Source: a virus. Taken from it: a DNA stretch of 54,256 nucleotides. The stretch covers positions 1 through 54,256 of the IMG/VR virus record IMGVR_UViG_3300033141_001736; one strand, written 5' to 3'. The position numbers and the translations under genes were made by a program. How positions within the stretch are numbered: the first letter of the stretch is position 1; each line of letters opens with the position of its first letter. Below, piece by piece: positions 24,622 to 39,444 of this stretch. Below the pieces are notes generated by a model. The model saw nothing but the letters and a program-made list of their open reading frames with translations. It had not been told where the DNA came from and searched no databases.

Positions 24622-25107
24622 ATGCCCAATAAGACTTGGCCGCAATACATTGAGACGGCCGAGCGCCGAGCGTTCGTACTGAACCTCAGAAAACGAGGCG
24701 TCAACTATCGTCAGATAGCGCAACTCGCCATTCAGCAATTCGGCGCAGAACGATTACCTGCTGGATGGGATGAGCGATATGCCTACAAAGACGTCAAACG
24801 CGAGCTGGCCCGCCTTCGCAAAGAGATAGCCGAGGATGCCGAGGCAGTTCGCACTCTGGAGTTGGAGCGATTAGATGCCCTGTATGTCGAGATGCACCGT
24901 CAGGCATTACAGGGCATCGTCGGCGCTGTCGATAGGTGTTTGAGAATCATGGAGAGGCGAGACAAACTGCTTGGCCTTTCCATGCCCGAAAAGCTAGAGG
25001 TGACTGGCGAGGGCGGCGCCCCATTGTTGAAAGAGGTCGTCATCATTCATAGCAGCGAGGAGCCGGACGGTGATGGAGCCGACGGTCGAGGCGACGGCAA
25101 GAGTTAA
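24622..25107 (+). CDS. terminase small subunit
   Basis: 161 residues from ATG 24622. N-terminal HTH-like region (AFVLNLRKRGVNYRQIAQLAIQQFG), then a long helix (ELARLRKEIAEDAEAVRTLELERLDALYVEMH). The Gly/Asp-rich C-terminus overlaps the large subunit by 38 nt. Position and architecture fit the DNA-recognition subunit of the packaging motor. Confidence 0.75.
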   Translation: MPNKTWPQYIETAERRAFVLNLRKRGVNYRQIAQLAIQQFGAERLPAGWDERYAYKDVKRELARLRKEIAEDAEAVRTLELERLDALYVEMHRQALQGIVGAVDRCLRIMERRDKLLGLSMPEKLEVTGEGGAPLLKEVVIIHSSEEPDGDGADGRGDGKS

Positions 25108-26395
25108 GCCGCCGCCTTTTCTCCGGTTTGAGGCTGGCCGCGTATTCGTTTCGTACCATGCTGGTCAGGATGTCGCATGGTATAGCAAGCGGCGCTTCGT
25201 CTTTGTGTTCGCAGGAACGCAGGGAGGCAAAACCGTCTTTGGCCCCTGGTGGCTGCACCGCGAGATACTGCGCACTTCTGAGCCCAAGGGTGAGAACGAC
25301 TATCTCGCTGTCACATCCTCTTACGACCTGTTCAAACTGAAGATGCTGCCTGAGATGAGGCGGGTGTTTGAAAATATCCTGGGCATAGGCCGCTGGTGGG
25401 CGGGCCAGCGTGTGATTGAGTTGCGCGACCCTGACACCGGCAAGTTCTGGGCCAAGAAGGGCGACGATTTGATGTGGGGGCGCATCATTCTGCGCTCAAC
25501 GCAATCCGATGGCGGTCTGGAAGCCGCAACTGCAAAAGCCGCGTGGCTAGACGAGTGCGGCATGGATGAGTTCAAAGTGGACCATTGGGAGGCCGTCCGC
25601 CGCCGTCTCAGTCTCGCACGGGGCCGTGTATTGGGCACGACAACACTCTACAATCGCGGCTGGCTCAAAGCCCAAATCTACGACCCATGGACACAAGGCG
25701 ATGATGAGATTGATGTTGTCCAGTTCCCATCCTATCTGAACCCGGCATTCCCCAAGGAAGAGTACGATCGCATTGTCGCCCGGCTGCCTGCGTGGAAAGT
25801 CAACATGTTTTACCGGGGCGAGTTTGATGTGCCCGCGGGCCTCATCTACGACAACTGGGATGATGATAAACAAGTGATTGAGCCCTTCGCCATTCCGGAA
25901 GATTGGCCGGTGTATGGCTTCATCGACTTCGGTGGCGTGAACACGGCTGCTCTCCGCTGCGCTATGAACCCCGAGAACAAGACCTACTATCTCACGGATG
26001 AGTATTGGGAGGGCGGCAGGACTGCGGCCCAACATGCTGCCTACTTACGCAAATGGAACGCAAAGGTTTGGTACGGGGGCGCTCCGTCCGAGGAGCAATG
26101 GCGGGCTGAGTTTCGGGCGGCGGGCATTCCGGTCCAGAAGCCTGCGGTGTCTGATGTCGAAGTCGGCATAGACAGGGTGTATGGCGCTCATAGCGAAGGT
26201 AGGATATTCTGTTTCAAGCACTTGGTCCATTACCGCGACCAGAAGGGTATGTACAGGCGAGAACTCGACCGCAATGGTGAGCCGACGGAGAAGATACACA
26301 ACAAGAACGAGTTTCACTTCATGGATGCGGAACGGTACGGCATAGCGACATTGGAGCGAAGGCCGAAGAAGGCGAAGGTGGTGCGACTTGGCTAA
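25070..26395 (+). CDS. terminase large subunit
   Basis: 441 residues from GTG 25070 (or ATG 25073). Walker A GTQGGKT (49-55), Walker B AAWLDE (158-162), coupling segment LGTTTLYNRGWL, and nuclease start YGFIDFGG (D286). ATP-driven DNA translocation plus headful or site-specific cutting. Overlaps the small subunit and the portal gene. Confidence 0.9.
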   Translation: MMEPTVEATARVKPPPFLRFEAGRVFVSYHAGQDVAWYSKRRFVFVFAGTQGGKTVFGPWWLHREILRTSEPKGENDYLAVTSSYDLFKLKMLPEMRRVFENILGIGRWWAGQRVIELRDPDTGKFWAKKGDDLMWGRIILRSTQSDGGLEAATAKAAWLDECGMDEFKVDHWEAVRRRLSLARGRVLGTTTLYNRGWLKAQIYDPWTQGDDEIDVVQFPSYLNPAFPKEEYDRIVARLPAWKVNMFYRGEFDVPAGLIYDNWDDDKQVIEPFAIPEDWPVYGFIDFGGVNTAALRCAMNPENKTYYLTDEYWEGGRTAAQHAAYLRKWNAKVWYGGAPSEEQWRAEFRAAGIPVQKPAVSDVEVGIDRVYGAHSEGRIFCFKHLVHYRDQKGMYRRELDRNGEPTEKIHNKNEFHFMDAERYGIATLERRPKKAKVVRLG

Positions 26396-28127
26396 GAAGG
26401 ACGAACTCACAACAGTTGCAGAACAAAGCGTCCAGGAGCGCGGCAAGCGCAAGGATGTAATGGCAGCGCACTCGCTGCTGCTCATGCTCGCGCGGGCGGG
26501 CACACTTGTTGCTCCGTGGTGGTCGCGGCGGCGTGACAGCGACCTGAGAAAGTTTTGGAAAGAGAACGACTATCTTTCCGGTGCGGTGTATACATTCACC
26601 AGCCGCATCAAAACTGTCCCATGGCGCATTGTCCCCAAAGACATGACCGTAAAGGCTCATGTCAGACATGCCGACGAATTTGAGGCGCGGCTGAATGAGT
26701 TGAGCGATTTTGGCAAGGGCTGGATGACACTCATTTCAAAGTTTGTCGAAGACTTGCTCACTCAGGACAACGGAGCCTTTCTCGAAGTCATCGGCAAAGG
26801 CAAGCCTGACGGGCCTATCGTGGGGCCTGCAATGGGCCTTGCCCATCTCGATTCGTGGCGATGCCAACGGACGAGCAATCATGAATTCCCCGTTGTCTTC
26901 ACCGACACCGACGGCAAGCGGTACAAGCTACATTACACCCGCGTCATCATGGAGAGCCAGATGCCCTCGCCGCTGGCTCAAATGCATGATGTTGGCTTTT
27001 GCGCATTGAGCCGCTGCATCAACAATGCTCAATCGCTTCTCGACATACTCATCCACAAGCAAGAGAAGTTGGGTTCTCGGCCTCAGCGCGGCCTACTATT
27101 GACCGGCGGCGGGCTGGACCCCGATGACGTGCGCGAAGCGTTCCGCGTGAGCAATCAGGTCATGGATGACCAGTTACTCCAGCGGTACTCCAAGACGGTT
27201 GTCGTGGGCCATCAAGAATTGCCCGATGCGACCCTGCAACTCATTGAACTCTCTGGGCTGCCCGATGGCTTCAATGAGGAGCAAAGCACAACCTTGGGAA
27301 TGGCCGCAATCGCGCTGGCGTTTGGCATGGACCCGCGGGAGTTGTGGCCCGCAATCACGGGAGGCGTCACAAGGGCAGAGGCGCTCATCGCTCATATCAA
27401 GCAGCGGGGCAAGGGCTTGGGCGAGACATTGCTTGCAATCGAGCGCCATCTGGGTTCGAAGTTCCTCCCGCCGTACCTGACCTTCAGCTTCGACTTCCAA
27501 GATGATGAGCAGGATAGGCAAAAGGCAGAGATAAAGAACATCCGCGCCCGCAGGCAAGTGATGATGCTTGAAGTGGGAGCGATGGATAGCCGCACCTTGC
27601 GAGAGGAACAACTGGCCGACGGCGACCTGACAGAAGCCCAGTTTGAAAGGATGGAGTTGCGTGATGGCCGCCTGAAGGATGGCACTCCGGTACTGACACT
27701 TTTCTTCAACCCTGACTACTCAGACCTGCTAGACTTGGGGATTGATAATCCCTTGGACAAGCAATCGAATGATGCCACCGAAGTGAAGTGGGCAATCAAT
27801 GCTGCGAAGGCCACAATCCTCGAAAAGATGGCCGGAGCGAACCCTGGCGAGAAGAAGCGGCTGAACGAGGCGATGGCGGCTCTTGATAAACTGCTCGAAA
27901 TGTACGGCGCGGAGAAAGAGACAAGGGCTGAGACAGAGCGGCCCACGCCCGCCACGCCCGAAGAAGGCGAAGAAACAGAACCGGAAGAACTTGAAGAGGG
28001 CATCAAGCAGCCTCCAGGCGAATTCACGGAAGAGGACCTGGAAGTGAAGGCAAATAGCATCTATGCAAAGACAATGAAAGCGATAAGCGATGCCGCCAGG
28101 AGAATCAGAATTACACGCTCTTCGTAA
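26388..28127 (+). CDS. portal protein
   Basis: 579 residues from TTG 26388 (AAGGTGG, 6-nt spacer). KFWKENDYLSGAVYTFTSRIKTVPWRI, EDLLTQDNGAFLEVI, SLLDILIHKQEKLGS and the long C-terminal helix fit HK97/SPP1-type portals. The C-terminal 60 residues are acidic and Pro/Glu-rich. Forms the DNA gate at one head vertex. Confidence 0.85.
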   Translation: MAKKDELTTVAEQSVQERGKRKDVMAAHSLLLMLARAGTLVAPWWSRRRDSDLRKFWKENDYLSGAVYTFTSRIKTVPWRIVPKDMTVKAHVRHADEFEARLNELSDFGKGWMTLISKFVEDLLTQDNGAFLEVIGKGKPDGPIVGPAMGLAHLDSWRCQRTSNHEFPVVFTDTDGKRYKLHYTRVIMESQMPSPLAQMHDVGFCALSRCINNAQSLLDILIHKQEKLGSRPQRGLLLTGGGLDPDDVREAFRVSNQVMDDQLLQRYSKTVVVGHQELPDATLQLIELSGLPDGFNEEQSTTLGMAAIALAFGMDPRELWPAITGGVTRAEALIAHIKQRGKGLGETLLAIERHLGSKFLPPYLTFSFDFQDDEQDRQKAEIKNIRARRQVMMLEVGAMDSRTLREEQLADGDLTEAQFERMELRDGRLKDGTPVLTLFFNPDYSDLLDLGIDNPLDKQSNDATEVKWAINAAKATILEKMAGANPGEKKRLNEAMAALDKLLEMYGAEKETRAETERPTPATPEEGEETEPEELEEGIKQPPGEFTEEDLEVKANSIYAKTMKAISDAARRIRITRSS

Positions 28128-28734
28128 ATTGGCGCTTATGGCCCTGCGGACCAAAAGCATCGCGGACTTTGGTCGCCGGGTGCGCGGGCTTACGCGCGGC
28201 TACTGGGCGGGCGAGATAGACCAGTTTACTTTCGTCGATAGTATGATAGAGGCCGTTCGCCGTGGCATTACGCAGGCATGGTACCAGGGCTTTCGGGAAT
28301 GTGGCTTCTCGGTCGAGGAGATGACCCACGACGAACGCTCGCAACTCGACCAGCACATCCTCGACAGCCATTCGACCATTCTCTCGTTCGCCCGCTTCAT
28401 TGCAGAAAACAGCAAGGCCAGCGGCGGCAAACTGCGAACCTGCCTGGCAAGAGCGGAGTTATGGACCAACCGCTACAACGCCGTTTACAATGAGGCCAAG
28501 GCAATCGCGTGCGCGGACCAGAAGCTGATGTGGCTCTACAATCCTGAGAAAGAGCATTGTGTTGACTGCCTGCGCTATCACGGGCGCGTGTATCGAGCCT
28601 CGGTTTGGAAAAAGTATGGAGCACTTCCACAATCCAGGAACCTTGCCTGCGGAGGTTGGCGATGCGGCTGCCGTCTCGTCCCAACCGACCAGCCCTGCAC
28701 GCCGGGAAGACCGCCCTCACCGATGTTTGCTTGA
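28090..28734 (+). CDS. head morphogenesis protein, Mu gpF-like
   Basis: 214 residues, overlapping the portal end. A helical body is followed by NRYNAVYNEAKAIACADQKLMWLYNPEKEHCVDC and a Cys/His C-terminus (LACGGWRCGCRLVP), the usual end of SPP1 gp7/Mu gpF-like minor head proteins. Found inside the head and involved in assembly or DNA release. Confidence 0.75.
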   Translation: MPPGESELHALRKLALMALRTKSIADFGRRVRGLTRGYWAGEIDQFTFVDSMIEAVRRGITQAWYQGFRECGFSVEEMTHDERSQLDQHILDSHSTILSFARFIAENSKASGGKLRTCLARAELWTNRYNAVYNEAKAIACADQKLMWLYNPEKEHCVDCLRYHGRVYRASVWKKYGALPQSRNLACGGWRCGCRLVPTDQPCTPGRPPSPMFA

Positions 28735-29782: not shown

Positions 29783-32700
29783 ATGCCTTGGAAGAAGGTG
29801 CGCAATCATCCGCGCTGTAAGCCGGGGCAGATTGCTGTCGTCCAAGTCCATGATGGCCGTCTTATGGGCTGCCACGATGATGAGGAAGCGGCGAATGCGC
29901 AGCTTGCCTATCTCAACATTCATGTCAAGGGCGGACCGGGTTCAGGGAATTGGGGCCACGCCGGGAGACCTGGACAGAGAGGAGGTAGTGCGCCGCGAAG
30001 TAGCGGTGCGGCGATGCCAATAAGTCATTCAGAGTACAAGCTGTCTGAGATGACGAAAGAGCAGAGAGAAAGACTCGGGAAGAAGTTGTATGCTGTCAGG
30101 GATGAATGGCGAGATAGCATCCAGCACATCGGCGATCTTGAAGAATACGAGAAAAGGCAGAAGGCTTGCGATTTACTTGGAAGTATTGCGCAAGACATCG
30201 ATGAGAGTTTCTTTGATAAAGGCAGCATAGTCCTTCGAAGGGATAAAGGGCGTGTAGTCGGCTTCATATATTGGGATGAATATGATATAGGCGGAAAGGG
30301 TGCTTACTGGCATCTTAGCGCCTTGGCTACTATTGAAAAAGGGCATGGCACGGCGCTATGCCTAGATTTTCTCCTAAAGGCTTCCCGTGAAGGCAAGGCT
30401 ATCGGAGGCACTTCCTTGTCCACCGCCTGGACGTTCTATCAAGGTTTGATGAAATCGGTTGGCCGTGAAGATTTGATAAAACAGGTGGCGCAAAGGAGCA
30501 AAACTGGAGTTAGGATTTCGATAAGTGCTGAGACATTGCGCGAGATAATGGAACCGTTCCAGGGTTTGGAAATCAAAGGTTTGAAAGAGGATGCCGAGAA
30601 ATTCCTGCGCGAATTCCGCAAGAAGCACGACGATGCGGGTGTTTGGTTCATACCTGACAAGGAAGAAAAAGGAGGCCCCGGAAGCGGTAACTGGGGACAC
30701 GCAGGCAGACCCGGACAACGAGGTGGAAGCGCGCCGCGAAGTAGCGGTGCGGCCATGCCCATCACTCATCAGGAATACGAACTGCGCAAGATGACAGAGG
30801 AGCAAAGAAAGAAATTTGGCGAGGAGTTAACGGACCTGACATACGAGTGGGAAGAAAAGAAAAACCAGATTCAAGACCCGAACGAAAAGACGAAGCGCGG
30901 CCAGGCCCTCGACCTATTGAATGTCGTTGCATTTGGCATCAAGCACGGTTATCGAGAGTCGGGCAACATCATCCTGCGTCGCGATAAAGGCAGCGTTGTT
31001 GGCTTCTTGATGTATGAGGAAAAGGGTCCTAACACTTGGCATCTTGCCGACTTAGCTACAATCGAGAAGGGCAATGGCACGCCGTTGATAATGGACTTTC
31101 TCCTGAAGGCAGGGAGGGAGCGCAAGACTGTTTCAGGCAACGCTTTAGGCAGCGCCTGGACGTTCTACGAGGGCCTGTTCAAAGCAACTGGCCGAGCGGA
31201 CTTGGCGAAGGAGGTCGCAAAGCACGAACCGTATGGCGTCCGACTTCGCATTCCCGGTGACGTGATGGCGGAGATAATGGAGCCGTTCCAGGGCTTGGAG
31301 GTCAAGGAACGCAAGAAGGAGGCGGAGAAGTTCTTGCGCGAGTTCCGCAATAAGCACGATGACATCGGCGTTTGGTTTCATCACGACCCAGACCAGATGG
31401 AAGTGCCTACAACGAAAGGAGGCCCAGGTTCAGGAAACTGGGGCCACGCGGGACGTCCGGGCCAACGTGGAGGCAGCGCGCCCAAGAGCGTCGTCATTGG
31501 CGAGCCGCAGAAGCTCACGAAGACGGCAATCTCGAAATACATCCAATGGTCCACTAGCCGCTACAATGAGTACCCGAAGAAATACGTCGTTGACACAGCA
31601 TACAGAATGCTCACGACCGGCAAAGACGAATATGGTGAGAGCAGGGCCGTGTTCTCTTCTGGAGGTTATACACCGTCCTCAGCCATGACCGGCAATGATT
31701 ACCTCGTTGATGGAGAGGAGAAATACATCGCTCGCGGAGTTGGGTGGGAGATTGATGATTTCGTTGAGCATGAGCGTGTGTATTTCACCGAGAAGGAAAT
31801 GGCAGACAAAGGCGGCCCTGGCTCTGGAAACTGGGGGCACGCGGGACGTCCAGGGCAGAGGGGAGGCAGTAGTCCCGGCGGAGGTTTGGGCGCAGTACCA
31901 TTCCAGCGTGTGACATACGAAGTTGAGGGCCTCGGTGAAGTGGTCAAACTGCCAAAGGAGTATTCATCGGATGCCCCCGCCGGTGTGGACGTGGTGAAGT
32001 TCTTCAAAAAGAACCCTGACGGAGCGGTCGTCTGGCAGGAGGACCAGGATTTCTTTGGCGAGAGCCGTCAAGCCTACTACATTGCTCATCGCAACGTCCG
32101 GCCGGGAGAGAAACCGTGGCGCATTACTGAGTTGGAGCGCACAGAGGGACCGGGCGGCAGCGTGCTCATGCCAAGAACGCATACGCAACATGGCAGTCCT
32201 AGAGAATTACTCCAAGCGATGAACAAGTTGGCCTCACGGGCGCAGGATAGCCAGATAATCACGGGCTTCAAGCCCATCGGTTTGACGAGCCCAGTTGAAT
32301 TGAAGGCGGTGATTGCACTCAGCGACAGTCTTGTGCTAGGATACGATGAGGAGAATGAGATGGAAGAAAAAGGCGGTCCAGGTTCTGGCAACTGGGGACA
32401 CGGAGGCCGTCCCGGAATGAGAGGCGGGAGCGCGCCAAAAGGTGGCGGCTTTGGAGGTGGCTATGGGAATCTGGGCTTGGCTCCGAGCGCGCCATCCGTC
32501 GTCGGTGTCAAGGCTCCTAAAACAGGGCGCAAAGTCTACGACTATTCAACCAACAAGCTCTGGCAACATGCCGGCGGCACAGACGGTTTGAAAAAGAAGT
32601 TCCCGCCGTCAAAGACGGATGCCGACAAGGTTTTCGACCACCTAACCGAGGTGTATGACCATGAAGCCGATTACTTGGTCGGCGCAGGTTTCGAGGAGGT

Positions 32701-34519
32701 TATCGAACCTGACTGGACGCGGGTCAGCGACCGTGTCTACAATACATGGGAGGCGAAGTCTCTCAAAGGGGACGATGGCTCCGATCTCAAGGAAGAACTT
32801 GGTGAGCGCGGGATGATGCTGCCAGCAGAAAAGGATGGGATTGTGGAGAAGTTTGGAGAAGCAGTGCAACCTGTTGAAATCACCCAATCGTTGGGCGGCG
32901 CTCAATCGTGGGATGAGTACGATGAGTATATGAAGCTAAGCGAACTGCAAGCAGCCAACGAAGCGGCCATTCGGGACTTCCGCTACATGGTTCAGAATAT
33001 CCTCGATGACGAGGAGTTAGACATGGCCGAGAAAAGCAAGCGCGTTGCGGCTCTGGCAGATGGGTTGCCGGACCGCGTTGAGAAGATTGTGACACAGAGT
33101 AAGGAGGCAGACTTATCGGAGGAAAGCATCATCGCAAAACTGGTCGGAATGGTCACACGTAAAGCAAAGCCTACTCGGATGGTGGATGGCAAGCCGCACA
33201 CCGCGGATGATTTCGCCTATGTGCCCGACCCCGAAACGCCATCCACATGGAAGCTCCCCATCTTCGATGAAGACCACATCTCTATGGCTATCACGGCGCT
33301 GCAACCCAGCGGCTTCCGAGGCCAAAAGGTTGACATACCAGCCGATGATAAGTCCAAAGTCTTGAGCCGCATATCAGCCGCAATCAATAAGATTGCCGAC
33401 GACGATACAAAGAACAGGCTGAAGCGGCGGCTCGAGGCGATTAGGAAAGAAAAGTCCTTCTACGTCTTCAAGGACAACAGCGGCTCATGGCGCTGGTTCG
33501 GATGGGTGAGCAACAAGTTCCGAGACCGAGACTATGGCAGGCATCCAGAAGGCGAGGTGCTAGCCGAAGCTGCCCATAAGGAATACATCGCCTGGGTAGA
33601 TGCAAATCCCCAGGAACGGATGCCGAGGTTACTTGCTTGGCACATTCCTCAGACGGCGACGGCCCACAAGGCCGATTGGGTGGAATACTCGGACGGCTTC
33701 TTGATGGCGAGCGGACCGCTCACGCCCGAAGAAGCCGAACGCATCAAAGCCGTCGAAGAGGAATATCGCCTGGGCATGAGCCACGGCTTCATTGCCTTGG
33801 ACAAAGACGAGAAAGAGGGTATCATCGAGAAGTACCGGACCTTCGAGATGACGTATCTTCCAATCGACGCGGCAGCGAACCCTTGGACGGACTTCCTGAC
33901 CGTCAGTAAGGAGGTAGAGCAGATGGGATTGTCCGAAAAGAAGCGAGAGTTCCTCAGCAAACTCATGGGCGATGAGTTCGTAGAGGAAATCGAGCAGGAA
34001 ACGGAAGCCAAAACAGCGGCCTTGGTAGCCGCAGGGGTGGACTACAAAGAGGGCGAGGAACCCGAGCCCGAGGCAGCCACCGATGAGGAAACGACCACGG
34101 AAGAGGAGGCCGAAGAGCCCGCAGCCGAGCAAGAGAAGGCGGACGAGGAGGAGCCGGAAGCTCCAGACCCGGTTGCCGAATTGCGCTCAGAGCTTGGAGA
34201 GGCTATGAAGGCCATTGGCGAGCAGTTGCACGCGCTCAACGAACGCATTGACAATCTCCAAGTCGAGAACAAACAGGTCCAAGAAGCCATCGAAGAGGTG
34301 GTTGGGCAAACGCCGAAGGTGAGCCTGAAGGACCTGTTCATGGGGTCGGTTATCGGCAAGGAGGAGGCCAAGGTTGACGGGCGCGTGTCTCTAGCGAAGG
34401 ATGGGCCAGAGGAAACTAAGCCGGAAGAGGGCATCGGCGCTTTCCCGGTTCCCATCCTGGGCCAAATCAAACAGCGCAACATGGAGTTCCAAATGGGTGT
34501 AAAGCCGGAGGTTGAATAG
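29783..34519 (+). CDS. 1578-residue head polyprotein: five linker modules, two GNAT-like domains, protease/scaffold C-terminus
   Basis: Residues 1-49 have the small CKPGQIAVVQVHDGRLMGCHDDEEAANAQL domain known ahead of phage head proteases. Five linkers GGPGSGNWGHAGRPGQRGGS (or near) start at 50, 297, 546, 677 and 864. Modules 1 and 2 (about 247 and 249 residues) are duplicates with GNAT-like features (VVGF, WHLSALATIEKGHGTAL, FLLKASREGKAI, AWTFYQGL). Modules 3 and 4 are unrecognised. Module 5 has HTADDFAYVPDPETPSTWKLPI, a protease-like stretch (about 1230-1380; MSHGFIALDK...FEMTYLPIDAAANPWTDF) and an acidic coiled-coil scaffold-like end. Just before the capsid gene, overlapping it by 1 nt. 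Confidence 0.75.
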   Translation: MPWKKVRNHPRCKPGQIAVVQVHDGRLMGCHDDEEAANAQLAYLNIHVKGGPGSGNWGHAGRPGQRGGSAPRSSGAAMPISHSEYKLSEMTKEQRERLGKKLYAVRDEWRDSIQHIGDLEEYEKRQKACDLLGSIAQDIDESFFDKGSIVLRRDKGRVVGFIYWDEYDIGGKGAYWHLSALATIEKGHGTALCLDFLLKASREGKAIGGTSLSTAWTFYQGLMKSVGREDLIKQVAQRSKTGVRISISAETLREIMEPFQGLEIKGLKEDAEKFLREFRKKHDDAGVWFIPDKEEKGGPGSGNWGHAGRPGQRGGSAPRSSGAAMPITHQEYELRKMTEEQRKKFGEELTDLTYEWEEKKNQIQDPNEKTKRGQALDLLNVVAFGIKHGYRESGNIILRRDKGSVVGFLMYEEKGPNTWHLADLATIEKGNGTPLIMDFLLKAGRERKTVSGNALGSAWTFYEGLFKATGRADLAKEVAKHEPYGVRLRIPGDVMAEIMEPFQGLEVKERKKEAEKFLREFRNKHDDIGVWFHHDPDQMEVPTTKGGPGSGNWGHAGRPGQRGGSAPKSVVIGEPQKLTKTAISKYIQWSTSRYNEYPKKYVVDTAYRMLTTGKDEYGESRAVFSSGGYTPSSAMTGNDYLVDGEEKYIARGVGWEIDDFVEHERVYFTEKEMADKGGPGSGNWGHAGRPGQRGGSSPGGGLGAVPFQRVTYEVEGLGEVVKLPKEYSSDAPAGVDVVKFFKKNPDGAVVWQEDQDFFGESRQAYYIAHRNVRPGEKPWRITELERTEGPGGSVLMPRTHTQHGSPRELLQAMNKLASRAQDSQIITGFKPIGLTSPVELKAVIALSDSLVLGYDEENEMEEKGGPGSGNWGHGGRPGMRGGSAPKGGGFGGGYGNLGLAPSAPSVVGVKAPKTGRKVYDYSTNKLWQHAGGTDGLKKKFPPSKTDADKVFDHLTEVYDHEADYLVGAGFEEVIEPDWTRVSDRVYNTWEAKSLKGDDGSDLKEELGERGMMLPAEKDGIVEKFGEAVQPVEITQSLGGAQSWDEYDEYMKLSELQAANEAAIRDFRYMVQNILDDEELDMAEKSKRVAALADGLPDRVEKIVTQSKEADLSEESIIAKLVGMVTRKAKPTRMVDGKPHTADDFAYVPDPETPSTWKLPIFDEDHISMAITALQPSGFRGQKVDIPADDKSKVLSRISAAINKIADDDTKNRLKRRLEAIRKEKSFYVFKDNSGSWRWFGWVSNKFRDRDYGRHPEGEVLAEAAHKEYIAWVDANPQERMPRLLAWHIPQTATAHKADWVEYSDGFLMASGPLTPEEAERIKAVEEEYRLGMSHGFIALDKDEKEGIIEKYRTFEMTYLPIDAAANPWTDFLTVSKEVEQMGLSEKKREFLSKLMGDEFVEEIEQETEAKTAALVAAGVDYKEGEEPEPEAATDEETTTEEEAEEPAAEQEKADEEEPEAPDPVAELRSELGEAMKAIGEQLHALNERIDNLQVENKQVQEAIEEVVGQTPKVSLKDLFMGSVIGKEEAKVDGRVSLAKDGPEETKPEEGIGAFPVPILGQIKQRNMEFQMGVKPEVE
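29930..32431 (+). repeat. five in-frame 60-bp linker repeats
   Basis: Copies at 29930-29989, 30671-30730, 31418-31477, 31811-31870 and 32372-32431. Four copies have identical protein sequence; the fifth has GHGGRPGMRGGS. Codon use differs between copies, so protein sequence rather than DNA is conserved. Confidence 0.85.
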
Positions 34520-35931
34520 TGGAAACTCAAATCTCGCCTGAAATCATCAAACAACTAGCCGCTGCGTTCCAGGCTCTGGCCGAACAAAAGTCAGCGGACG
34601 CAGGACCGACCGGCCCTGCATCTCTGTTCGGTAGCGGCGGCATCTTCTCCACACCCGGAGTAGAGCCTGACGTAATCACGGCCTATGTCCGTCCGCATGG
34701 GCTTATCACCGAACTGCCGCGAATGCCGTCCACCTATGAAAATCCTCGCTTCGCTACCATCACCGGCTTCACGGACACAGTTGGCTCGGAGCCTGCTCAG
34801 CCGTGCGATGACGCCCCGATGGGCTACATGAAGGGCTGCAATCTCACCGCTGCGTTCGGACGCCTCTCTCGGTCAACGCCGACGATTGAGTTCGACAAGG
34901 TGATGCTGCGATTGCACCGAGGTATCAGTACGGACCTTGCCCTGCGCGGGCGGGTGCTTGGCCTCGGTGACATGGCCCCCGCGGGGCTCAGCGAAGCAGA
35001 CATCCTCAATATCTACACAATGGCCGAGATGGTAACGGTCGGCGTGAATATTGAGCGCGAGTTGTCCAGGATGATTTGGCAGGGCACGCCTGCCAATAAC
35101 AACGTCGGCGGCGGCTACAAGGAATGCCCCGGCCTCGACAATCAAATCGCGACGGGCCAAGTGGATGCCGATACTGAGACTGCTTGCGAGGCGCTTGACA
35201 GCGATGTCAAGAACTTCAACAACAACCCTGTGACCGGTTCCTCACCGAGCATCGTCGAATACATGAGCATGATGGAGTTCTACCTGCGCTACAACGCGGA
35301 GCGCATGGGCCTCATGCCAGTCGAGTGGGTCATCGCAATGACCGAGGGCCTGTGGTTCGAGTTGACCGAAATCTGGCCCTGCCAGTACAACACGAACCGC
35401 TGCGCGTCAGCGGTCGTGGGCGACCAGTCCCGCACCGTCCTCGATGGTGGCGAGATGCGGTCCCAGATTGATGCGATGCGGACGGGCAAGTACATCGACA
35501 TCAACGGGCATCGTTATCGTGTCATCACCGATAGCGGCATCCTGGAAGAGAGCATCGGCTACGGCACGTTCCGCTCATCCATCTACTTCATCCCGCTCAC
35601 CATCACGGGTGGGTTCCAGGTCACCTACCTGGAGTACGTGGACTATCGGGCCGGCGCACGCGATACCGCTCTCTTGCGCGGCAATGAAACCTTCTGGACC
35701 GACCGCGGCATGTACTCTTGGGCCGCCGAATTCCAGAAGTGGTGCTACAAGTTGTCCTGCAAGATTGAGCCTCGCATTGTGCTGCGAACACCGCAGCTTG
35801 CCGGGCGCATCGACGATGTGCTCTACGAGCCGCTCCAGCACGTGCGCGAGCCGTATCCTGACAGCCCGTACTTCAAGGATGGCGGCGTGAGCCTCCGAGG
35901 CGGTGAAAGCCTGCACGCGGTCTGGCTCTAA
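34519..35931 (+). CDS. major capsid protein
   Basis: 470 residues from GTG 34519 (GGAGGTTGAATA upstream). Follows the protease/scaffold gene and precedes a strong hairpin, the usual capsid place. Features such as TPGVEPDVITAYVRPHGLITELPRMPS, an E-loop-like acidic region, and the spine-like AEMVTVGVNIERELSRMIWQG fit HK97-fold capsids of metagenomic phages. No N-terminal scaffold domain, as that is carried by the polyprotein. Confidence 0.7.
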   Translation: METQISPEIIKQLAAAFQALAEQKSADAGPTGPASLFGSGGIFSTPGVEPDVITAYVRPHGLITELPRMPSTYENPRFATITGFTDTVGSEPAQPCDDAPMGYMKGCNLTAAFGRLSRSTPTIEFDKVMLRLHRGISTDLALRGRVLGLGDMAPAGLSEADILNIYTMAEMVTVGVNIERELSRMIWQGTPANNNVGGGYKECPGLDNQIATGQVDADTETACEALDSDVKNFNNNPVTGSSPSIVEYMSMMEFYLRYNAERMGLMPVEWVIAMTEGLWFELTEIWPCQYNTNRCASAVVGDQSRTVLDGGEMRSQIDAMRTGKYIDINGHRYRVITDSGILEESIGYGTFRSSIYFIPLTITGGFQVTYLEYVDYRAGARDTALLRGNETFWTDRGMYSWAAEFQKWCYKLSCKIEPRIVLRTPQLAGRIDDVLYEPLQHVREPYPDSPYFKDGGVSLRGGESLHAVWL

Positions 35932-36014: not shown

Positions 36015-36728
36015 ATGGGTTATCGCGTATTCGTCACAACCTCAGACAAGTATCTGCTTGCTCTGAGGCCTTTTGCTTGGCTTTTCAACAAGTACTGGTC
36101 CCCCGAAGTCGAGGTCATTGTGGGCGGCTTCACGCCGCCTTCATTTTCGCTGCCGTCGAACTTTCATTTCATGGTCCTGGGCGAGCAAGAGAAGTATCCG
36201 GTGGATAGGTGGTCGGATGCTTTTATCCGCATGGTGGAGTACCTGGGCGATGAAATATTCGCCTTCATGCTGGAGGACTACTGGATAACAGAGCCTGTGG
36301 ACCTGCGCGCGGTTCAGATGCTATACGATTACATGCGCCAGTTTCGCTATGTCATCCGCATGGACCTGACAACGGACCGTATGTTCGCGGGCGGGGCGCA
36401 GCCTTACGGCAAGGTCGAGGACATTGAATTGGTGAAGTCGTCGCCGGGTTCGCCGTATCATATGAGCCTGATGACTGCGTTTTGGCGCACAGAGCATCTA
36501 ATGAAAATCTTGGTCCCGCATGAGAGCCCTTGGGACATAGAAATCAAAGGGACAACAAGGCTCTCTGCTTTTGGCGATACGATGCTGGTACTCGGCACAA
36601 AAGTTGCGCCCGTGAAGCATTGCCTCGCCTTCCGCGCAGACCAGCCCGGCAAGCTGCTTCTCGATGGCTTGAAGGCAGAGGATATTGATGAGATGAGAAA
36701 CCTCGGCCTACTGGAGGGATTAGAATGA
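36015..36728 (+). CDS. glycosyltransferase-like protein
   Basis: 237 residues. VFVTTSDKYLLALRPFAWLFNKYW, FAFMLEDYWITEPVD and MSLMTAFWRTEHLMKIL are typical of a virus- and phage-encoded GT-A type family, with ED as the probable metal-binding motif. First gene of the sugar island; overlaps the next by 4 nt. Confidence 0.55.
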   Translation: MGYRVFVTTSDKYLLALRPFAWLFNKYWSPEVEVIVGGFTPPSFSLPSNFHFMVLGEQEKYPVDRWSDAFIRMVEYLGDEIFAFMLEDYWITEPVDLRAVQMLYDYMRQFRYVIRMDLTTDRMFAGGAQPYGKVEDIELVKSSPGSPYHMSLMTAFWRTEHLMKILVPHESPWDIEIKGTTRLSAFGDTMLVLGTKVAPVKHCLAFRADQPGKLLLDGLKAEDIDEMRNLGLLEGLE

Positions 36729-37948
36729 TAAAACAGAAAGGCAAGGCGGGGCGAAGGGCCATTCGGCGTGTCGGCACCGGCGACTTCAATGCTTCCCTGC
36801 GCATGGTCACTCTTGTGAATAAGGTGCTAGCATCGGGCCGCCTTTCCTATGGGCCGATGTCTAAGAGGTTCGAAAGAGAGTTCGCACGGCTCCACGGCTG
36901 CCGTTATGGCATTCTCTCAAACAGCGGCACTTCCAGTCTCCATGTTGCTCTCCAGGCCATGAAAGAGATACACGGCTGGCGGGATGGAGATGAAGTTATT
37001 GTGCCTGCTTCGACGTTCGTGGCAACCGTCAATGTCGTCCTGCACAATCGCCTGAAGCCTGTTCTCGCGGACATCACGGTTCACGACTACGGCCTGAACC
37101 CGCGGGAGGTCGTCAAGAAACTCACGAACCGAACACGGGCCATCATCCCCGTTCATTTGTATGGGCAGCCTTGCAACATGCGCGCATTGATGGCGATTGC
37201 CGACAGGTACAGTTTGAAAATCATCGAGGATAGTTGCGAGTGCATGTTCGCAGCCCATCACGGAATGCCCGTTGGCTCCATGGGCGACATCGGATGCTTC
37301 AGCCTATACAATGCCCATATCATCACCGCGGGCGTCGGCGGCATTGCAACGACCAGCAATCCGGATTACGCCAAGGTGATGAGGTCGCTGGTCAATCACG
37401 GCCTTGATATTCAGGAGTTGAACACAGATGAAAATTTCTCGCCCCGGCCCGTTACTGGCCGCTCTTTTCGTTTCAGCCTTTGTGGTCACAGTTATCGCAT
37501 CACGGAATTGGAAGCTGCGCTGGCGTTGGCGCAGTTAGAGGATTGGCAGCAAATCATCAAGACACGCCGCAGGAATGCGCGACACCTACGCACTGGCTTG
37601 CGCAACATCGAACGCGAGATAGGTGTGAGCCTGTGGTATCTACCAAGCGCGCGCCAGGGCAACACGCATTCGTGGATGATGTTCCCCATTCTGCTCCGAC
37701 GGGATGTGCTCGCCAAAGAGAAATTCATTCGATGCCTCAATGCTCTGGGTATCGAGACACGAGACATGATGCCCATCGTTTCGCAGCCCATTTACAAGGA
37801 TTGGATTAGGCCGGAAGATTATCCCGTTTCGAAGTATGTAGACGAGAATGGCTTCTATATCGGCTGCCATCCCGGACTGACGCCGGACGACATCGAGTAC
37901 GTTTTGCAGGTCTTCCGCGATTACATTTACGAGACGTGCCGTGTTTGA
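36725..37948 (+). CDS. DegT/DnrJ/EryC1-family PLP enzyme with His in place of Lys
   Basis: 407 residues. The fold signatures are clear: GCRYGILSNSGTSSLHVAL, EVIVPASTFVATVNVVL, IIPVHLYGQPCNM and KIIEDSCECMFA. At the catalytic lysine position (FSxxxxKxxTxGEGG) it reads CFSLYNAHIITAGVGG with H198. ColD and RfbH/DdhC dehydratases show the same K-to-H change and make 3-deoxysugars. So a nucleotide-sugar dehydratase is more likely than an aminotransferase. Confidence 0.75.
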   Translation: MIKQKGKAGRRAIRRVGTGDFNASLRMVTLVNKVLASGRLSYGPMSKRFEREFARLHGCRYGILSNSGTSSLHVALQAMKEIHGWRDGDEVIVPASTFVATVNVVLHNRLKPVLADITVHDYGLNPREVVKKLTNRTRAIIPVHLYGQPCNMRALMAIADRYSLKIIEDSCECMFAAHHGMPVGSMGDIGCFSLYNAHIITAGVGGIATTSNPDYAKVMRSLVNHGLDIQELNTDENFSPRPVTGRSFRFSLCGHSYRITELEAALALAQLEDWQQIIKTRRRNARHLRTGLRNIEREIGVSLWYLPSARQGNTHSWMMFPILLRRDVLAKEKFIRCLNALGIETRDMMPIVSQPIYKDWIRPEDYPVSKYVDENGFYIGCHPGLTPDDIEYVLQVFRDYIYETCRV

Positions 37949-38672
37949 GAACGAATACTGGACGCGCTTTGAAAATCTCCCTCCCATTGAGGGTTCCGGC
38001 TATTGGGCCAACCGCCGCAAAAACATGCGGGCGCATATGGTCAAAGAGCCGCCAGATAAGCCGTGGACATGGAGTACCGTCATAGCAACAATGTATGTCG
38101 GCCACGGCAACAAAAAGGTCATCAAAGCCGCCAAAGAAATCCCTCCCGAATGGCTCGGCAGGCTCGAAGGCGAAGAGGATGCTCCCAACCTCGTTTGCCA
38201 AGCATATCACCTGTGGCGCTGGCTACGTCGTCAATCGTCCCTGCGCTTGGAGGACCTGAGTACCATTGTGGAGTTCGGTGGCGGCTATGGGGCGATGGTT
38301 GTCGTTTGCTCTGCTCTTGGCTTCCGCGGCGATTACTACATCTACGACTATCCCGAAATGGCATTGATGCAGGAGTATCACCTGGGCACCCGCGAGATTG
38401 AATGTAGTGTCCATTGGGAGCCGCATCCCAGAAAGCCCGACCTGTTCATCTCGTGCAATGGCATCGACGAGGCGCCGCTTGATGAGCGAGAAGCATTCTT
38501 GGGGACAATCAGGCCATCGCAGTTCTTGATTGTCGCTCAACACATGTGGCTGGACATCAATAACTACAATTACTTCCACGACTGGGCGCAAAGACAATTC
38601 AGCAAGTGGCGTGTCCTATGGGCCATTGAGAAAGACGGCAACGCAATCTATATCATGTCGATAGGGCGATAG
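37941..38672 (+). CDS. SAM-dependent methyltransferase, sugar O-methyltransferase type
   Basis: 243 residues from GTG 37941, 8-nt overlap with the previous gene. TIVEFGGGYGAMVVVCSALGF is motif I, YYIYDYPEMALMQEYHLG the acidic loop, and PDLFISCNGIDEAPL motif IV-like. Similar proteins sit in glycan gene clusters. Substrate unknown. Confidence 0.65.
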   Translation: MFENEYWTRFENLPPIEGSGYWANRRKNMRAHMVKEPPDKPWTWSTVIATMYVGHGNKKVIKAAKEIPPEWLGRLEGEEDAPNLVCQAYHLWRWLRRQSSLRLEDLSTIVEFGGGYGAMVVVCSALGFRGDYYIYDYPEMALMQEYHLGTREIECSVHWEPHPRKPDLFISCNGIDEAPLDEREAFLGTIRPSQFLIVAQHMWLDINNYNYFHDWAQRQFSKWRVLWAIEKDGNAIYIMSIGR

Positions 38673-38673
38673 T

Positions 38674-39444
38674 ATGCAGGAACGACAGAATGTAGTTGTC
38701 GTTGGATACCCGAGAAGCGGAAACACATGGCTTGCCCGATTGCTCGGCAACGCTCTCAATTCCCCCGTGACCGGCTTGAAAAAAGCAATGCCTCTTGCTA
38801 ATGAGGGCAAAGACCGTCCCGGTCCTTACTGGGTGAGACAGTTACATCTTCATCCTCATGCAGGCCCCTGCGAGCACAAGGTTGCGCTTGTCAACGCGGG
38901 AACGTTTTGTCTTGATAATTGGCGCGATGAGCGGATAGCTTTCATCGTCCGCGACCCTCGCGATGTCGCCGTGAGCGCCGCGAGTTACTGGCACATGCCG
39001 CTTGCCAAGACCGTTCGGCGCATGAAGGATGCGAAGTTTCCGATGGGCTTTGGGCCATGGTCGAAGTTCGTCCGCGACTGGCTCCACGTCTACAAAAACA
39101 ATGTGGACCACCGCATGATAGTTGTGAAGTATGAGGCCCTGAACGAGGATACAGTTGCCATCCTGGGAGCGGCCCTTGCGATGCTCGACCTTGAACCCGT
39201 AAAGCCTTTGGAACAGGTTGCGGCGGAAGAAAGCATCGAGGCCAAACGCAAGCAGGTTATGAAAGATGGCGACCAGCGGCCTTACGGCAAGGACATACAG
39301 TTGCACCATCTCCGGAAAGGCATCGTGGGCGACTGGAAGAACTGGGACTGGTCCAGCATCGGCCCGTTTGCGGACGAGACGTTTGGCCCCACGATGGACC
39401 TGCTCGGCTACGAAAGAGAGGAGAACTGGTGGTCATCCCGATAG
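38674..39444 (+). CDS. PAPS-dependent sulfotransferase
   Basis: 256 residues. GYPRSGNTW (11-19) is the 5'-phosphosulfate loop and RDPRDVAVSA (93-102) the 3'-phosphate site, the two diagnostic motifs. It would move sulfate from PAPS to a hydroxyl, probably of the glycan made by the neighbours. Overlaps the next gene by 16 nt. Rare in phages. Confidence 0.8.
   Translation: MQERQNVVVVGYPRSGNTWLARLLGNALNSPVTGLKKAMPLANEGKDRPGPYWVRQLHLHPHAGPCEHKVALVNAGTFCLDNWRDERIAFIVRDPRDVAVSAASYWHMPLAKTVRRMKDAKFPMGFGPWSKFVRDWLHVYKNNVDHRMIVVKYEALNEDTVAILGAALAMLDLEPVKPLEQVAAEESIEAKRKQVMKDGDQRPYGKDIQLHHLRKGIVGDWKNWDWSSIGPFADETFGPTMDLLGYEREENWWSSR

Follow-up and report, generated by a model that had tools for sequence, protein, structure and literature searches.

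A phage polyprotein with five conserved glycine-rich tags is probably virion cargo processed by a head protease

The window analysed here, which is the whole 54,256-nt stretch of IMG/VR record IMGVR_UViG_3300033141_001736, contains an open reading frame (ORF) for a phage polyprotein of 1578 amino acids (aa) in which a 20-residue glycine-rich peptide, termed the tag in the following, occurs five times (Table 1). The tags begin at aa 50, 297, 546, 677 and 864 and have the consensus GGPGSGNWGHxGRPGxRGGS. An earlier note on this DNA had described five identical linkers that separate modules of 247, 249, 131, 187 and 715 residues. All five copies are present and these module lengths, counted after a 49-residue leader, are exact, but only the first four copies are free of amino-acid changes (GGPGSGNWGHAGRPGQRGGS); the fifth, GGPGSGNWGHGGRPGMRGGS, differs from them by two substitutions. 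Lys precedes all five tags, which for a protein with 8.0% Lys has a chance probability of approximately 3e-6. The leader has no database match of its own, and the comparison against phages yielded only E ~0.5.

At the DNA level, the tag copies in the window differ from each other at 11-20 of 60 nt, and the codon identity among them is 54/182 versus 62.8 expected from the codon usage of the window. This pattern indicates that the peptide is kept by selection at the protein level, with synonymous sites saturated and the conservation old. Recent tandem copying of the linker is ruled out by the same saturation. Separately, the 23 nt right after tags 1 and 2 (29990-30012 and 30731-30753, the start of APRSSGAAMP) are identical, although the flanking tags and modules have diverged. 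In IMG/VR, no close relative was found for the complete ORF, nor for modules 1 and 2.

Modules 1 and 2 are diverged duplicates (54% identity, E=4e-87), as the earlier note had proposed together with an acetyltransferase-like character. Module 1 was modelled with AlphaFold from a two-row alignment, which gave a modest mean predicted local distance difference test score (pLDDT) of 68.7. Acetyltransferases occupied the top PDB matches of this model throughout (Foldseek, VIA-align; best Foldseek E 3e-3, Z ~8), and the order of its strands and helices is that of GNAT enzymes. We assign modules 1 and 2 as GNAT-like enzymes with modest confidence, on the strength of the fold found for the module 1 model. 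The Pfam GNAT profile did not match either module at E values up to 10, and modules 3 and 4 had no significant match in Pfam or other family searches.

In 9NA-like phages, the gene 5′ of the major head gene encodes a domain that module 5 also contains; in module 5, a protease-like stretch comes next and then a C-terminal part that is acidic. The protease-like stretch belongs to no Pfam or PHROG family, and neither the S78 profiles PF04586 and PF14550 nor S77 (gp21-type) proteases were matched in the window. Relatives of this stretch were found in three other tag phages, all with Lys before the tag (E=5.6e-17, 6.8e-9 and 6.5e-6). Across the four sequences, His and Ser are invariant and follow the same order as in HK97-like (S78) proteases, to which the profile alignment is collinear but weak. 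We conclude that the stretch is a probable serine head-maturation protease that is S78-like without being S78. The proposal of a last module that combines a probable head protease and a presumed scaffold is supported by comparative evidence. A single-sequence AlphaFold model of the protease failed (pLDDT 37.6) and was not used.

Table 1. Coordinates of the polyprotein ORF, its parts and the neighbouring head genes in the window
Feature	Position (nt)	Strand	Basis or remark
Terminase large subunit	25070..26395	+	phrog_2, E=8e-20
Probable portal protein	26388..28127	+	phrog_2662, E=0.0099, weak
MuF-like head protein, separate gene	28090..28734	+	PF04233, E=0.077 (weak); phrog_24776, 1.6e-7
Whole polyprotein ORF	29783..34519	+	1578 aa; immediately 5′ of the presumed capsid gene
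N-terminal leader, 49 aa, Lys at end	29783..29929	+	by eye like the leader mini-domains of the L195, L160 and L187 head-protease ORFs
Tag 1, Lys before	29930..29989	+	probable cut K49/G50
Cargo module 1, GNAT-like	29990..30670	+	model and fold matches
Tag 2	30671..30730	+	probable cut K296/G297
Cargo module 2, diverged duplicate of module 1	30731..31417	+	54% identity
Tag 3	31418..31477	+	probable cut K545/G546
Cargo module 3	31478..31810	+	no match
Tag 4	31811..31870	+	probable cut K676/G677
Cargo module 4	31871..32371	+	no significant match
Tag 5, two-substitution variant	32372..32431	+	probable cut K863/G864
STWKL...FRG domain	33134..33436	+	common to 9NA gp38-like gene 5′ of the major head gene
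Probable serine protease of head maturation (DRD, AWH, MSHGF)	33437..33955	+	relatives in three further tag phages of the Lys class
Acidic C-terminal region, presumed scaffold	33956..34516	+	composition and position
Presumed major capsid protein	34519..35931	+	position only; overlaps the polyprotein stop codon

A pattern search of IMG/VR returned at least 118 stretches with the tag, and the listed matches (118 loci) constitute our tag sample. A freer pattern applied to 257 Gb of prokaryotic genomes returned 27 stretches, mostly from clostridial metagenome-assembled genomes (MAGs) and one from an archaeal MAG; the two patterns differ, so the two numbers are not strictly comparable. Among the matches listed, 243 tags in the 118 loci head modules of 96 clusters. 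The Asn, His, Arg and aromatic positions of the tag are near-invariant. The same holds for positions that the first search pattern left free, among them Ser5 and the GGS at the end. Pfam matches among 99 representative tagged modules comprised ADP-ribosyltransferases, GNATs, zeta toxin, Ntox50, CdiA_C, ATLF, PI3/4-kinase, MuF and DUF2213. Each of the 79 tags checked shares its strand with the protease, at a median distance of 7 kb. Most ORFs in the sample carry one tag (180), and 31, 5 and 3 ORFs carry two, three and four, respectively. Having several tags in one chain is not unique to the window, as these 39 other ORFs have two to four, and the five in the window are the most seen here. Judged from these sequences, the tag is a widespread viral peptide that heads many unrelated modules, including head proteins.

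The tag is apparently undescribed so far: neither the peptide nor a link of its preceding residue to a protease was found in the literature library that was searched (outside literature was beyond its scope), and no PDB chain matches the tag. With the 22-aa tag as query, BLAST against records of phages and plasmids was uninformative, the low-complexity filter being the probable cause, and says nothing on absence of the tag from sequenced isolates. Candidate isolates with tags are Oxalobacter paraformigenes HOxBLS (L147) and Desulfosporosinus sp. PR (L126). A second recurrent leader-like peptide, W-D-E-x-x-HPR...GG, heads phage head-protein modules in L161 (1-3288) and L162, with further matches in L005, L007, L016, L048, L075, L109, L110 and L139. 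The L161 ORF combines, below this peptide, an HD-like module (by eye) with an XkdF-type protease. This peptide may be an alternative tag.

The residue directly before the tag (position -1) is constant by class within a genome, being D, K, E or one of L/A/M/V, the last class often with Arg or Lys at -3. With classes that were defined after the data had been seen, all 70 genomes with at least two unrelated tagged modules were class-pure (shuffles: mean 16, max 29), and so were 48/48 (mean 9.7, max 21) after dereplication, that is, after removal of genomes sharing any module at 60% identity. The class-free concordance of single letters at -1 was 0.79 versus 0.27, a value reached in 0/2000 shuffles. 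Positions -5 to -7 showed no concordance within genomes.

The class also corresponds to the family of the head protease. Strong DUF2213 matches occurred in D genomes only, distant DUF2213 in L/A-type genomes and S78/S78_2 in K genomes, and further contigs that we examined were consistent for DUF2213 and S78. Relatives of the window-type protease likewise sit in Lys-class contigs. Because the E class with L/I at -3 corresponds to the rule for T4 gp21, we searched for S77 next and found it in 3/3 E contigs of the first set and in 0/25 other contigs. A second E-class set again had mostly L/I-x-E, and S77 was present in 1/13 contigs, in this case with K at -3. Over both searches, S77 was found in 4/16 E contigs versus 0/50 others, and other proteases must serve the remaining contigs of the second set, some of which are fragments; L200, L204 and L206 are L/I-x-E genomes in which S77 was not found. 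In the contigs without an assigned protease, S49 gave no match and ClpP a single one. The latter lies in the L005 contig, where the tags are directed toward a contig end. After clustering of the proteases at 70% identity, class and protease family agreed in 38/39 clusters (majority-rule shuffles: mean 17, max 25). Published specificities are in line with this assignment. T4 gp21 cleaves at L/I-x-E (PMC9026906) and the HK97 cut lies at K103/S104, between Lys and Ser (PMC10275583); on the sequences, the E class with L/I-x-E agrees with the former and the Lys class with S78 with the latter.

It is highly improbable that the tags were spread by copying within each genome and the shared -1 residue was merely inherited with the copies, with no cleavage taking place. 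Recently copied tags do occur in some contigs (L010, L018 and L057), the codon identity of tags within genomes is slightly raised (0.41 versus 0.35 expected), and genome bias is also seen at some of the variable positions within the tag, which points to a contribution of descent. However, synonymous sites are saturated in the copies of the window, the compared modules are not related to each other, and the -1 class fits protease family and published specificities.

Three unrelated ORFs of L060 start at the tag or one codon before it, behind Shine-Dalgarno-like sequences, and two of the three have in-frame stops a few codons upstream. None of six protease families searched was found in the L060 contig. 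Because this phage apparently starts translation at the tag, the tag is the probable mature N-terminus. Because the tag is constant while the proteases differ, the protease probably recognizes residues before the tag, and the tag would have a post-cleavage job of its own. Elsewhere the leaders are short, and their amphipathicity exceeds that of shuffles (combined z 5.5 for 51 leaders), which would be expected if they were targeting propeptides. An apparent two-residue leader, MD, in L029 was rejected, as the frame is open upstream for a GTG-started leader of 24 aa that resembles those of its neighbours.

The tags separate modules and are rich in Gly, and some polyvalent proteins are transferred at full length (PMC5512222), so the chain might be packaged and injected uncut as one multidomain (polyvalent) effector in which the tags are conserved flexible spacers. 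We regard this as quite unlikely: many tagged proteins have just a short leader before the tag, no spacing is needed in the L060 ORFs, the -1 residue fits the protease family of each phage, and the near-invariant Asn, His, Arg and aromatic positions argue against a mere spacer.

Fusion of cargo and protease is found in other phages as well, and 9/44 protease ORFs carry tags. L195, a reduced relative in the K-class contig of L052, encodes a leader mini-domain, STK directly followed by GGEGSGHWGHTGRPGEIGGS, one GNAT-like module, a window-type protease and a C-terminal part, in this order. The GNAT-like call for L195 was made by eye and from a weak collinear profile match to modules 1 and 2, and Pfam did not match this module. 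A single ORF of L160 (1492-2964) encodes a uracil-DNA-glycosylase domain (5e-11) followed by a head protease of the XkdF type (7.5e-29). A further ORF, L154 (2802-5915) of Eggerthella phage LE2-3, is annotated as 'tRNA synthetase', probably wrongly; by eye, it consists of a head protease with an intein-like insert near the Ser, followed by an STWKL/FRG-type domain.

From the architecture of the ORF, the conservation of the tag, the genome-specific -1 residue and its match to the protease family, all of which are seen in the sequences themselves, we infer cleavage, encapsidation, injection and a role of the tag. The ORF probably encodes a tagged cargo polyprotein processed by the head protease, with modules cut free in the capsid and most probably injected with the DNA. 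The C-terminal protease and scaffold module would carry the chain into the procapsid, where the protease, reading the residues before the tag, would cut at the Lys/Gly-Gly junction on the N-terminal side of every tag (following K49, K296, K545, K676 and K863). These cuts would discard the leader and free modules of 247, 249, 131 and 187 residues along with the 715-residue protease/scaffold, each starting with GGPGSGNWGH. The four smaller modules, two of them GNAT-like, would be the virion cargo. As mature N-terminus, the tag would most simply hold cargo in the head or guide its exit via portal and tail. Comparative evidence supports the proposal of the earlier note that a cargo polyprotein is cut at the linkers, but the peptide is a conserved tag of many phages rather than an ordinary linker, and as the likely cut falls just before it, it most probably stays on the released module.

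A cut that serves head assembly, in which the modules would be pieces of scaffold or core and would be degraded or expelled instead of injected, appears rather unlikely. No function could be recognised for modules 3 and 4, and T4 core proteins are indeed cut and mostly removed from the head (PMC9026906), but modules 1 and 2 resemble enzymes, and elsewhere the same tag heads ADP-ribosyltransferases, zeta toxin-like and other effector-like domains.

Besides the contribution of descent, several points weigh against processed and injected cargo. For the window protease, neither a family match nor a usable structure model was obtained, the GNAT assignment depends on a model of modest confidence, the start sites in L060 are inferred, and S77 was found in only 1/13 contigs of the second E-class set. 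The protease families are clade-like, so the 39 clusters represent fewer than 39 independent events. The sole exception among them, L198, breaks the -1 rule, as its three tags (positions 510, 1035 and 1815) follow Q, Y and M. VHxHxI lies upstream of all three, and the L198 protease possibly reads a different stretch.

Within the window, the presumed capsid gene has no family match, and no Mu_F match was found in the polyprotein ORF. Downstream of the presumed capsid gene (36725-39444) lies an unusual set of enzymes of the sugar- or surface-modification type, comprising an aminotransferase of the DegT/DnrJ/EryC1 family (E 9e-90), a sulfotransferase (E 2e-14) and, between the two, a methyltransferase that was matched weakly.

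The closest known kinds are polyvalent proteins and the internal proteins of T4, which have capsid-targeting sequences. As is proposed here for the tagged modules, the T4 internal proteins IPI-III and Alt (PMC9026906) lose a short leader to the head protease gp21, stay in the head as cargo and are injected; a gp21-type protease together with L/I-x-E sites is even present in three tag phages of the Glu class. Unlike the system described here, the T4 proteins are encoded by separate genes and no shared mature N-terminal tag has been described for them, whereas the 20-residue tag is common to unrelated cargo and phages and the cargo in the window is fused in cis to a protease; with no S77 match in the window, the polyprotein would resemble the T4 type in its mode of action but is not a member of it. 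Polyvalent proteins (PMC5512222) combine several disparate enzymatic domains in one chain, including GNATs and ADP-ribosyltransferases, and are predicted to be packaged and injected; the chain in the window has GNAT-like modules next to a probable protease, and its gene lies in the head gene cluster. The processing of polyvalent proteins is attributed to zincin-like metallopeptidases, whereas the chain in the window has the tag, a probable head serine protease and a presumed scaffold; the words 'linker' and 'glycine' are absent from the text of PMC5512222. MuF polymorphic toxins of temperate phages (PMC5576092) are similarly head-associated and contain toxin-like domains, but are carried by a MuF domain instead of a tag and a head protease/scaffold. 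With HK97-type proteases (S78), the window protein shares the Ser/His order, a gene adjoining the presumed capsid gene and Lys before the probable cut. It differs in that it has no family match and that it would act in cis on a cargo polyprotein, at five sites between Lys and Gly-Gly.

More tentatively, and with less confidence than we place in the processing of this polyprotein, GGxGSGN[FWH]GHxGRPGxxGGS might be an N-terminal signal that marks phage virion cargo in general, independently of the protease, and acts in retention or ejection across very different tailed phages. Head proteases of several families might then expose the tag, which one phage would make directly at the start codon. 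The -1 rule predicts cleavage specificities, namely Asp for DUF2213 and Leu/Ala, often with Arg at -3, for its distant branch. Which proteins travel in the head and how they exit is known for few model phages. With a short peptide that marks such proteins across many uncultivated phages, a motif search would suffice to ask which of their proteins are injected, and the tag, if it truly is a marker of injected phage effectors, would uncover many unannotated host-takeover enzymes.
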